DNA from: a virus
Length of the DNA stretch: 22,110 bases
Strand: one strand, 5' to 3'
IMG/VR virus record: IMGVR_UViG_3300042563_001813
Coordinates: 1-22,110 of that record
The notes beneath the pieces were generated by a model. It searched no databases and was not told the origin of the DNA. It worked only from the letters and a program-made list of their open reading frames with translations. Below are positions 4,736 through 19,242 of the stretch, in pieces. A program made the position numbers and the translations under genes. Numbering within the stretch: position 1 is the stretch's first letter; each line of letters opens with the position of its first letter.

Positions 4736-4963
4736 ATGATCAAAGTACAAACCCTCATCCTCCGAATCTTTGGGGTATTCGGATCATCCGCACTCGCAGC
4801 CGTAGCAGGTGGCGCAATCTTCGGAGTAGAACTCTGGAAATCAGCAGCCATCGCAGGTGTAGTAGCCGCAGGAAAAGTAACCGAAGCCCTGCTTCGTTCA
4901 TGGTCTGAAGACGGAACCCTCACTAAAGAAGAAGTTGCAGCAGCCTTCGGCAAAAAGGCGTAG
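4736..4963 (+). CDS. Small holin-like membrane protein
   Basis: This protein of 75 residues has hydrophobic stretches at about 6-30 (LILRIFGVFGSSALAAVAGG) and about 35-47, then a charged tail DGTLTKEEVAAAFGKK. This layout matches small actinophage holin-like proteins (r1t type), which gather in the cytoplasmic membrane and open it for the endolysin. It is the first gene of the lysis cassette, two genes upstream of other membrane proteins and three before the M15 endolysin. The start ATG 4736 has a -10 box instead of a ribosome site. Its 3' end overlaps the next gene by 29 bases. Holin assignment is inference. Confidence 0.55.
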   Translation: MIKVQTLILRIFGVFGSSALAAVAGGAIFGVELWKSAAIAGVVAAGKVTEALLRSWSEDGTLTKEEVAAAFGKKA

Positions 4964-6071
4964 CCGTTACGCCCTAGTAGGGGTTGTACTTTCCATACTG
5001 TTCCTGTCATCAAGTGCCAGCGCAGAAAATCCAATCATCACTGGTATCACTGATTACTGGTTTGAATACACCGAGCCGACACAGTTTGAGGCACGGACCT
5101 ACATGGTTGACGGGTTTAACTCTGACCCTCAACTATGGCTGTACAACGAACAAGACGTTCTGCTTGTCAGCGTTGACGACCATTTTGGTTTACAGTCATA
5201 CATTTCCATAGAAGTACAACCAGGTCGGTATCGTTTACGAGCTGGTACATGCTGTTGGCAACCTGATGTGTGGCGTGGGGGTAACGGCTGGAATGAGCAG
5301 TACGAGCTGTCCTTCAATGGGGAACCAGCCAACACCACGTCTACTACTGAGGAGCCGACTACTACTACTTCGTCTACTAGCACGACCACGACATCTACGA
5401 CGACCACTACATCTACTACGTCAACCACATCGACAACATCGACTACAAGTACAACATCTACAACCCTTGCACCAACGACCACAACAACACTGCCACCAAC
5501 AACAACCACGGTAGCCCCAACGACAACAACCACATCGTCTACCACCACCACAACAGTGCCAGCCACAACGACCACATCAACCACAACCACCACGGCATCT
5601 ACTGTTCCCATTCCTCAAACAACTGTGCCTCCATCAACCGTGCCAGCCACGACAACAACATCCCTGGCACCCACAACAACAAGTACATCCACAACCTCTA
5701 CGACTTCAACAACAACTTCAACAACATTACCACCAGTAGTTGTACCGCCTGTCGTGACCGCTGAACAAGCTATTGCTTTAGCGACCAGCCCAGCAGCATT
5801 AGCTGTCATCACCGCTGAAGAAGCAACCCAAGTCTTTGAAGCGTTAGTCCTAGATGATCTATCCGATACCGACCTAGTGGAGTTAGTGTCAGCAGTCCAA
5901 TCCGCACCCGTGTCTGTCAGAAAAAGTTTTGAGCAGTCAGTCAATGTGTTCGGAGGGGCAGTAGACACCTACGTCCCTATCGGTTCAACAGTACCCGTCG
6001 GTACCCGCCGAGCCTTAATTGCCATCACAATCATGACCTCACTCATGGCTATCCCAACTAAACGAAAGTGA
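4935..6071 (+). CDS. Secreted, membrane-anchored protein with long Thr-rich (mucin-like) stalk
   Basis: This protein of 378 residues starts at TTG 4935 inside the holin-like gene; this start gives a proper signal peptide (KRRSRY, hydrophobic core, cut after SASA at residue 30). Residues 31-131 form a compact beta domain with a CC pair, somewhat like PPC/bacterial pre-peptidase C-terminal domains. Residues about 132-268 are nearly all Thr/Ser with scattered LPP, VAP and VPA. Residues 275-345 are helical, and 355-372 form a hydrophobic anchor followed by TKRK. There is no LPxTG motif. It would sit outside the membrane. It could act in host-surface alteration, superinfection exclusion or lysis. 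Function unknown; topology is clear. Confidence 0.75.
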   Translation: MQQPSAKRRSRYALVGVVLSILFLSSSASAENPIITGITDYWFEYTEPTQFEARTYMVDGFNSDPQLWLYNEQDVLLVSVDDHFGLQSYISIEVQPGRYRLRAGTCCWQPDVWRGGNGWNEQYELSFNGEPANTTSTTEEPTTTTSSTSTTTTSTTTTTSTTSTTSTTSTTSTTSTTLAPTTTTTLPPTTTTVAPTTTTTSSTTTTTVPATTTTSTTTTTASTVPIPQTTVPPSTVPATTTTSLAPTTTSTSTTSTTSTTTSTTLPPVVVPPVVTAEQAIALATSPAALAVITAEEATQVFEALVLDDLSDTDLVELVSAVQSAPVSVRKSFEQSVNVFGGAVDTYVPIGSTVPVGTRRALIAITIMTSLMAIPTKRK

Positions 6072-12946: not shown

Positions 12947-13210
12947 ATGAGAGATGCGTGGCACGAGAAAGCACACTGCAAAGGCGTATCGTCAGAGATC
13001 TTTTTCCCTGATGCCTCTTTCGACAGTGGAACGGGACGTGTATGGAAAGAAGCACGAAGCTTTTGTGCTGTATGCCCTGTCATCAGCGAGTGCCTCAAGT
13101 TTGTACTCCCATTCGAAGAAGCAACGGGCAGACGTAACGGGTTCTGGGCGGGGATGACCCCCAAAGAACGTGACCAACACGTCTACTACCAACAACGGGT
13201 AAAGCCCTAG
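12947..13210 (+). CDS. WhiB-family transcription regulator
   Basis: This protein of 87 residues has the four WhiB cysteines C11, C40, C43 and C49 (AVCPVISEC), which hold a [4Fe-4S] cluster. GFWAGMTPKERD (65-76) is the G-W turn and basic segment that contacts sigma factor and DNA. WhiB proteins are confined to actinobacteria and their phages, so this fixes the host group. A phage copy could reprogram or block host WhiB regulation or superinfection. The start ATG 12947 follows an A-rich tract with no clear ribosome site. Its stop lies inside the terminator-like hairpin. Confidence 0.88.
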   Translation: MRDAWHEKAHCKGVSSEIFFPDASFDSGTGRVWKEARSFCAVCPVISECLKFVLPFEEATGRRNGFWAGMTPKERDQHVYYQQRVKP

Positions 13211-17244: not shown

Positions 17245-17286
17245 TGTGTAGCCCCTTCAGACTTCTCAGGTATCTGCCTTCATCAG

Positions 17287-17323
17287 TTGCGGGCGATAAT
17301 CCCCGCAAGACTCCCGTAGGAGT
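17287..17323 (-). other. Two stacked hairpins in a 5' leader
   Basis: Minus strand ACTCC-TACG-GGAGT (17323-17310, a TACG loop of the stable UNCG class) is followed at once by TTGCGGG, an 8-base loop and CCCGCAA (17308-17287). No U-tract follows. They occupy the gap between the 17329 and 17244 genes and may attenuate or stabilise the RNA. Confidence 0.45.
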
Positions 17324-17328
17324 TTCGG

Positions 17329-17685
17329 CTAGTTCTCTTCGTCTTCCTCGTCAAAGAAGTTTGACCACCCGTCAATTGTGCCGAGAGTGAAAACAGTCTG
17401 GCACGACAGGCACGGGAAATAGGCGATGTCTTCGAGGACTACCCCGTGAAACTCTGCTTCATGGTCGCAGTTCTGGCACCCCGTGTAGATGGTCGCTATC
17501 TGGCTGCTGCTCTCTGGCTGCTCTTCTGGTAGTTCCTCACTGGCGAGAATTGCCCGCCCGCCTTCGATGAGTTCGCCGTCTGTTGCGTACGCCAGAGCCA
17601 CGCCCTGCGCCCGTTGTAGTGAACTCTCCCGCACTCTGATTTCGTAGGTGTTGCCTACTACTACGTGGATGATGTAGTCGTGCAT
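17329..17685 (-). CDS. Zinc-ribbon protein with acidic ends (118 residues)
   Basis: ATG 17685 lies two bases after the upstream stop. The N-terminal part is a small alpha/beta unit (YIIHVVVGNTYEIRVRE, LQRAQGVALAYATDG). An acidic linker ELPEEQPESSS leads to a zinc ribbon with GCQNC (C70, C73) and PCLSC (C92, C95). The tail is DEEDEEN. A nucleic-acid or transcription-machinery contact is plausible. Function unknown. Confidence 0.6.
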   Translation of the reverse strand: MHDYIIHVVVGNTYEIRVRESSLQRAQGVALAYATDGELIEGGRAILASEELPEEQPESSSQIATIYTGCQNCDHEAEFHGVVLEDIAYFPCLSCQTVFTLGTIDGWSNFFDEEDEEN

Positions 17686-17687
17686 CT

Positions 17688-17813
17688 CTAGCCCTCACAC
17701 TCTCTGCATAGTTGCTCGGTGTCGTGAAAGAACAAAGCGACACGCTCGTCGCACTTGTCGCACCAGTGGCGGGTCTCAGTAGTCCCGTCGCTGTAATGAA
17801 TGTAGTAGTCCAT
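17688..17813 (-). CDS. Zinc-ribbon microprotein, first gene of leftward operon
   Basis: ATG at 17813 has GAGGGGGACATT upstream. The 41 residues contain CDKC (18-21) and CREC (36-39) after a DYYIHYSDGTTETRHW strand. A longer frame to 17912 lacks a ribosome site and its added residues look random. It leads the leftward transcript from the non-coding region. A TTGACA at 17900-17895 (minus strand) lacks a good -10 at 17 bases, so its promoter is unresolved. Confidence 0.6.
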   Translation of the reverse strand: MDYYIHYSDGTTETRHWCDKCDERVALFFHDTEQLCRECEG

Positions 17814-17967
17814 AATGTCCCCCTCGGAACTAGGTATCGGGTCGGAATAACTCGATACAGAAATCGTACAACAGTTAGACGGGGAAGGAAACATCATGTC
17901 AAGCCAGACCACCCCGTGAAACCCTTACAGAATAAGGCTCAAAAAGAAATCCAAAAAAAACTTTCCA

Positions 17968-18053
17968 ACAGTCACCGACTAGACCCCCAATTTCTCAACA
18001 GTCTTGGACTCTTCCCAAGTAACCACCGACCACTTCACGAACAGTCACCGACT
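17968..18053 (+). repeat. Direct repeats (iteron-like) left of parS
   Basis: ACAGTCACCGACT occurs at 17968-17980 and 18041-18053, and a variant ACAGTCTTGGACT at 17998-18010. Spacing is 30 and 43 bases. Such repeats could bind an initiator or regulator. Confidence 0.5.
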
Positions 18054-18056
18054 CCT

Positions 18057-18076
18057 GATCGCTAACAATTGCGATC
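18057..18076. repeat. Dyad GATCGC / GCGATC
   Basis: GATCGC (18057-18062) and GCGATC (18071-18076) around TAACAATT. It directly follows the direct repeats and may be an operator or part of an origin. Confidence 0.4.
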
Positions 18077-18140
18077 GACCCGCTAACAAAAGCAAGCACC
18101 ACCACCCGACCGCTACCCACCAGCGGAGAACAGGCGACTA

Positions 18141-18156
18141 TGTTTCACGTGAAACA
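18141..18156. promoter_or_regulatory. parS: Perfect parS centromere site
   Basis: TGTTTCACGTGAAACA is a perfect 16-base palindrome identical to the consensus bacterial chromosomal parS bound by ParB. It stands in non-coding DNA. No ParA or ParB gene is visible in this window, so it either serves a ParB encoded elsewhere on the phage or recruits the host's ParB. Confidence 0.85.
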
Positions 18157-18232
18157 ATCCCAAGGGGAGGGGGCTAGGCGTTGCCGATATCAAGGGACGA
18201 AAAAAGGCGAGGGGCAAAGGAAAGGCTCCCTA

Positions 18233-18248
18233 CCTACCAGTCGGTAGG
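18233..18248. terminator. Hairpin CCTACC-AGTC-GGTAGG
   Basis: A perfect 6-bp stem with a tetraloop, right of parS. It is followed by CTAAAA on the plus strand and by TAGGGAGCCTTTCC on the minus strand. It could be a weak terminator or a protein site. Confidence 0.3.
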
Positions 18249-18675
18249 CTAAAACACAACTGGGGGTCTGCCGAGGCTCATAGGGGGGTATATATATGTA
18301 CCTGGAAAGTTACGTTCTCACTCTTTTGTTGTGTGGAGGGTTGAGTTGATCGTGGGTGTTCACTGTGTGTGGTGGGTAACTACTCTTTGTGGTTGTTCTG
18401 AGTGTTGTACGTTTCGGGCGGGGAGAAGTACACCAGCTTGTTGTTGTTCTAAACATGTTGGCAGGGAAGAAAAAAGAAAAACCACTGAACTGGAAGTTGT
18501 TCCTAGCTTTGTGCCTCGTTCTTTGCAAGCAACCGATGCGTAGCGAGGGCGGTAGCCGCCAACGGCGGAACCTGATCGTGAGAGTCCTGGGTTTAACTCC
18601 CCCACAGTTTAGACACTGTTACATGCCAAGGTCGCCGTAGCCATGTTTAGCCGACACCTTAAAAGGATTCGAATG

Positions 18676-18727
18676 TTTTGATCGTTCATTCAACGCTGCT
18701 TGAATCTCTTACACAATAGGATCAAAA
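18676..18727. repeat. Nested inverted repeats
   Basis: TTTTGATC (18676-18683) mirrors GATCAAAA (18720-18727). Inside, ATTCAA (18688-18693) mirrors TTGAAT (18700-18705). Just left is AAAAGGATTCGAATGTTTT, nearly palindromic around TTCGAA. This could be an operator cluster or a cruciform near the start of the rightward late genes. Confidence 0.4.
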
Positions 18728-18886
18728 GGTACATAACGTTTTTGTCTGATTGCAGGATTCATCTACCCCAGTTCCCTGGTGTGAATTGCCCCGCATCATG
18801 CAACCGATGTACAGCCTTGCCTGCCTTGACGCTATCCCAGCGTGGAGGTCTTGTGAAGTTGTCATCAGCATAGCATGTGTTTCTGT

Positions 18887-18892
18887 TACTAT
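18887..18892 (+). promoter_or_regulatory. -10 element TACTAT before the late gene cluster
   Basis: TACTAT (TANNNT) lies eight bases before ATG 18901 with no Shine-Dalgarno, again a leaderless arrangement. No -35 is seen. Confidence 0.4.
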
Positions 18893-18900
18893 TACAACTC

Positions 18901-19242
18901 ATGGCTTCTAAAATTCCTGCAAAAAAACAACCGACTCCTCCTGCTAAGAAAGCAGTTGCGAAATCTTCTAACAAACCTGGACCTATGGATGATCTTGGTC
19001 GTGCAGCTAAAAAAGTTGGTGGGCTTCTTCGTGTTCCTCTTGTGCGTGAAAAAAGAACGTTGATGCCTACAAAAGCGAATCCTTCTATGGGACCTCTTGG
19101 TAAAACCCTTGCTTCTACTATAAAGAAGTCTGGAGATCCAACAAAGTATCTCCCTGGTGCTGCAACTACTGGTCGTGCAGCTGCTAATGCTTTGGTTGCT
19201 AAAAAGCAAAAAGCGTTGATGGACAGCAAAAAGAAAAAGTAA
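18901..19242 (+). CDS. Lys-rich basic protein (113 residues)
   Basis: I prefer ATG 18901 over GTG 18877 because the latter lies in the -10 region. The product is very basic: an N-terminal Ala/Pro/Lys stretch (ASKIPAKKQPTPPAKKAVAK), then PMDDLGRAAKKVGGLLRVPL, MGPLGKTLASTIKKSG and a KKKK end. The GKTLxST motif recurs in the next gene. A DNA-binding or internal virion role is possible because the cluster precedes the terminase. No known family. Confidence 0.6.
   Translation: MASKIPAKKQPTPPAKKAVAKSSNKPGPMDDLGRAAKKVGGLLRVPLVREKRTLMPTKANPSMGPLGKTLASTIKKSGDPTKYLPGAATTGRAAANALVAKKQKALMDSKKKK

Follow-up and report, generated by a model that had tools for sequence, protein, structure and literature searches.

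The window analyzed here, a stretch of 22,110 bases that makes up a whole linear viral contig, contains an exact copy of the bacterial parS site. We propose that this copy is functional and draws the chromosomal ParB of the host to the phage genome, and we give this reading, which is drawn from sequence comparisons, a probability of about 0.5. The explanation requiring the fewest assumptions is that host ParB is used, because the parS is perfect, because the site recurs among related phages and because neither ParB nor ParA was found in the window or in its near-complete relatives. On these grounds, the suggestion of the initial annotation that the phage hitchhikes on host ParB can be retained, but not the extrachromosomal-prophage setting in which it had been placed. 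Taken by itself, it is likely that host ParB would bind the window parS.

The parS site and its surroundings

A scan of the window confirmed that TGTTTCACGTGAAACA is the exact parS consensus (16/16 positions). From the base composition of the window, 5.4e-6 exact copies of parS would be expected. The scan for further copies that the initial annotation had proposed returned none, the 22,110-base record containing this single parS-like site even when up to three mismatches were allowed. TGTTTCACGTGAAACA is also the sole perfect 16-bp palindrome of the window, where 0.33 palindromes of this length, whatever their sequence, would be expected. The surrounding region without genes, annotated as 1.09 kb long, measures 1,087 bases and separates a leftward gene array (ATG at 17813) from the rightward terminase block (ATG at 18901). 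No tRNA was found in this gap. Searches for a second contig carrying the same parS site with its flanks, and for relatives through the leftward gene adjoining parS, did not return any.

Table 1. Features of the window discussed in the text.
Feature	Position	Strand	Remark
parS, perfect 16-bp palindrome TGTTTCACGTGAAACA	18141..18156	.	window scan
Non-coding stretch with parS, repeats and probable structured RNA	17814..18900, 1,087 b	.	
Three direct repeats AACAGTCNNNGACT	17967-17980, 17997-18010, 18040-18053	+	AGTC-N3-GACT dyad in each
Conserved element preceding the terminase block	18257..18865	+	covariation in the 18525-18865 part
First leftward gene adjoining the non-coding stretch	17688..17813	-	ATG reading; the GTG reading begins at 17912
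Terminase large subunit (TerL), cut by the contig end	20518..22110	+	query for finding relatives
WhiB-like regulator	12947..13210	+	actinobacterial host marker

The direct repeats that had been noticed beside parS are indeed present, as three copies of the 14-mer AACAGTCNNNGACT (Table 1) spaced by 30 and 43 bases and located 88-174 bases away from parS. They are probable operator or iteron sites, and likely the operator of some phage or host regulator. Similar repeats are observed upstream of TerL in L145, L150, L152-L155, L165, L168, L173, L179 and L181, with or without parS.

An alternative hypothesis is that the role of parS is regulatory. Host ParB would nucleate at parS and its spreading would silence or delay the divergent phage promoters, so that expression would track the host ParB level or the cell cycle, without any role in segregation. 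The location of parS in a divergent intergenic region, next to operator-like dyad repeats, is consistent with this hypothesis, as is its position shortly upstream of leftward genes in L141, L145, L146 and L181. However, no sigma-70-type promoter could be recognized near parS (a weak test for actinobacteria), and parS is placed differently from one lineage to another, without a constant position relative to one gene. We regard a regulatory role as unlikely, but promoter silencing is, like the titration of ParB considered below, a serious competitor of the segregation reading.

The same non-coding stretch contains an element that is shared by nearly all relatives, with and without parS alike; the conserved part covers 18525-18865 and probably begins at 18257. 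Its consensus fold comprises 48 pairs, 21 of which (21/48) show compensatory changes among 24 relatives, and 96.4% of the cells pair. The RNA covariation amounts to 0.333, as compared with 0.112 (sd 0.009) for shuffles and at most 0.077 for slid structures. A search of Rfam 15 gave no match to the element (18257-18865). We probably deal here with a novel structured RNA, which may define a phage RNA family of its own with a length of about 400-600 nt. Another RNA motif, a type II hammerhead ribozyme (RF02276, 45.8 bits), is observed between leftward genes at positions 17268-17330 of the window (minus strand) and also in the relative L123 (4485-4547, minus strand).

Gene content of the phage family

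The contig is a fragment ending inside the terminase, its near-complete relatives being about 39-41 kb long. Besides the genes listed in Table 1, it encodes tail proteins, a RecE-like exonuclease, a single-strand annealing protein and a RusA-like resolvase. The product of the gene at 4935-6071 (plus strand) is predicted to be secreted or exposed at the surface and contains a long repeat rich in threonine (TTTTST...). Since the tblastn matches of the WhiB protein are actinophage records only, we infer that the host is an actinobacterium. With TerL as query, at least 120 relatives were found in IMG/VR, 80 of which were analyzed; judging from their sources, they presumably come from fresh water. 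The phage collection contains no near relative of the window, the TerL identity of cultured phages being below 60%, and no TerL relative was found in the genome contigs searched for host identification.

The initial annotation had stated that no ParB was in view, and a search with the PF02195 profile (E<=0.1) bears this out for the 22,110-base fragment and for 22 relatives, about ten of which are 35-41 kb long. The absence of ParB is thus defined by profile searches of the relatives and of the window, the latter representing about half of the genome of its phage. No ParA-type ATPase (PF13614), tyrosine integrase (PF00589), serine recombinase (PF00239) or HTH_3 repressor (PF01381) was detected in 18 records including the window fragment. 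The relative behind L154 carries a one-mismatch parS and is apparently complete at 38,872 bases because it displays a terminal direct repeat of 127 bases. Neither the profile search nor a comparison of the larger part of its non-structural genes with Pfam revealed a ParB or another partition protein in this relative; the Pfam comparison identified recombination, SSB, lysozyme and HNH domains.

The family looks lytic, and with no integrase, ParA or HTH_3 repressor in the 18 records, the extrachromosomal prophage evoked at first is not supported. Partition of a prophage was rejected on the searches for integrases and the HTH_3 repressor, and on that for a serine recombinase, which gave no match either. 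A parABS system of the phage's own was rejected for the 22-kb fragment and the relatives searched, in which neither ParB nor ParA gave a match. One could still assume, the record being a 22-kb fragment, that the remaining half of the phage genome encodes an own ParB or another protein reading the palindrome. However, no ParB_N or ParA was found in the relatives of 35-41 kb, and where parABS systems of actinophages have been investigated, they rely on 8-bp repeats and not on the parS 16-mer (PMC7157519). We consider this assumption highly improbable.

Distribution of parS among related phages

The eight loci closest to the window, with TerL sequences 95-96% identical to its own, are all devoid of parS, and the site is therefore dispensable. 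In the corresponding stretch of the closest relatives examined, the best match to parS shows 5-7 mismatches and no degenerate copy is seen; the flank around the window's parS is hypervariable among them. On the scale of the family, a parS with at most one mismatch is present in 8 of 81 related loci (863,850 bases), whereas 300 composition-matched permuted palindromes, sought in the same loci with the same tolerance, were found in 0.02 loci on average and in 3 at most. This comparison indicates that the presence of parS in the family is not due to chance.

The copies are exact in L198 and L181, and five relatives have one mismatch, namely L154 and L155, which carry TGTTTCACGGGAAACA, and L141, L145 and L146, which carry TGTTTCCCGTGAAACA. 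In L154, L155 and L198, parS precedes the conserved RNA element by an approximately equal distance, while in L181 and in L141, L145 and L146 it is found in other places among the leftward genes. The site thus occupies three different places in the family, which are non-coding or overlapped only by short open frames, none of these being a recognized gene. Since L145, L146 and L141 are close to each other, and likewise L154 and L155, the loci are not independent and the 8 loci have to be counted as about five lineages. These are scattered over the TerL tree, with 6 changes by parsimony. Altogether, the conservation among related phages that the initial annotation had proposed to examine is only partial, parS being absent from the eight closest relatives and recurring in about five lineages. 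The absence from the closest relatives corresponds to one half of what the initial annotation had named as a refutation, the other half being a failure of ParB to bind. parS turns over fast in this family, and it is likely to be under selection.

This patchy occurrence, together with the absence from the closest relatives and the hypervariable flank, is what would be expected if parS were present by chance or by neutral hitchhiking, for example within a scrap of host chromosome. Such an origin is nevertheless very unlikely, as parS recurs far more often than matched palindromes, both in the family and across viral contigs, and as the flanks of its copies differ, which argues against one inherited scrap. 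Another hypothesis is that parS is a decoy, the replicating phage copies titrating host ParB off the chromosome and disturbing segregation or division. A lytic phage would multiply parS many-fold, and no phage ParB was found. On the other hand, one parS per genome would make a weak sponge, and the loss of parS in close relatives means that they have no need for the site. A decoy therefore seems quite improbable.

parS in other viral contigs and cultured phages

The exact 16-mer is present in at least 120 IMG/VR stretches, and the one-mismatch form likewise, while control palindromes were found in 4 stretches (3 contigs) and in 10. Among the matches listed, 34 of the 39 parS contigs longer than 15 kb lack a ParB_N at E<=0.01, and 36 of the 39 lack one above the family cut-off. 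It is common for viral contigs to carry parS and no ParB. We also observed that 71/132 of the parS matches listed fall outside open reading frames, as against 15% of random positions. The proportion for control palindromes, 3/11 with one repeat contig left out, is not clearly different from it, and because these few controls are also often intergenic, this bias was set aside as a proof of function. One control palindrome, TGTTACACGTGTAACA, occurs in several copies in L202 and L205, which are stretches of one 23-kb contig (IMGVR_UViG_3300037423_000235), and could act in this contig as a genuine operator or centromere-like site.

In the phage collection, 427 records gave parS-like matches to a 30-mer around the site, a BLAST search near its noise limit in which not all matches are exact. 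This set is led by Listeria, Arthrobacter and Microbacterium phages and includes Bacillus phages and Microviridae. Two phages were checked on their full records. The phi29-like Bacillus phage Goe23 contains four parS sites with at most one mismatch and no ParB. Arthrobacter phage VroomVroom (L223, OQ938592.1) has six sites with at most two mismatches, two of them exact, and no ParB_N match. A literature search covering few subscription journals yielded no report of a phage parS without ParB beyond phi29. Given the phi29 precedent and the frequency of ParB-less parS in viral contigs, the window parS is not new in principle.

Discussion

How could a single site serve the phage? ParB bound to CTP forms clamps that are loaded at parS and then slide along the DNA for tens of kb. 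In Corynebacterium glutamicum, a single parS is enough for ParB to spread over 32 kb and for SMC to be recruited (PMC7083940). We propose that host ParB loads at the phage parS and that its spreading from this one site could cover much of the phage genome of about 39 kb. The ParB-coated genome would then be tied to host ParA/SMC, and an injected or slowly replicating genome could be positioned and inherited in slow-growing hosts. This would amount to a role in deferring lysis, comparable to the one that host Spo0J plays for phi29. Segregation or retention appears to be the best single purpose for parS, at odds that we would put at even or slightly below.

The closest parallel can be drawn with phi29. 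According to PMC9437464, which cites Meijer et al. 2005, this virulent phage depends on host Spo0J, a ParB, for the entrapment of its genome in spores. The phi29-type phages are lytic, as the window phage appears to be. They carry parS in their genome, as in Goe23, and no ParB, which for the window phage was found neither in the 22-kb fragment nor in the relatives searched, and they use a host segregation protein, as we propose for the window phage. They differ in that phi29 achieves spore entrapment in Bacillus, jointly with Spo0A, whereas the window phage, for which no connection with sporulation is known, would use the ParB of an actinobacterial host through one parS. The extrachromosomal prophages of the actinophages RedRock and Miko also have actinobacterial hosts and rely on ParB-parS partition of phage DNA, but they encode their own ParA and ParB and use clustered 8-bp repeats as parS (PMC7157519). 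In contrast, the window phage looks lytic, no parA or parB was found in the sequence searched, and its repeats are three 14-mers with a dyad. The 16-bp consensus of chromosomal parS, for example in C. glutamicum and mycobacteria, is identical to the window site, but chromosomal sites lie near oriC and parB and the window parS lies beside terminase genes. Finally, SGI1 hijacks the parABS system of IncC plasmids (PMC10954446) and is thus also a mobile element using the partition proteins of another replicon. In that case an island exploits a plasmid, while here a phage would exploit a chromosome.

A tentative hypothesis, whose chances we judge to be somewhat short of even, is that the widespread host-type parS without ParB is a docking device gained convergently by lytic phages of many hosts. 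It would attach them to host ParB-SMC and be gained or lost as host conditions change. This can be directly tested in cultured phages such as Arthrobacter VroomVroom, Listeria A511 and Bacillus Goe23. If it is true, the part of ParB would not be limited to chromosome segregation. The protein would also be a common point of contact of lytic phages with their hosts, far beyond the case of phi29, and the persistence of such phages in aquatic bacteria that grow slowly could be explained in this way.
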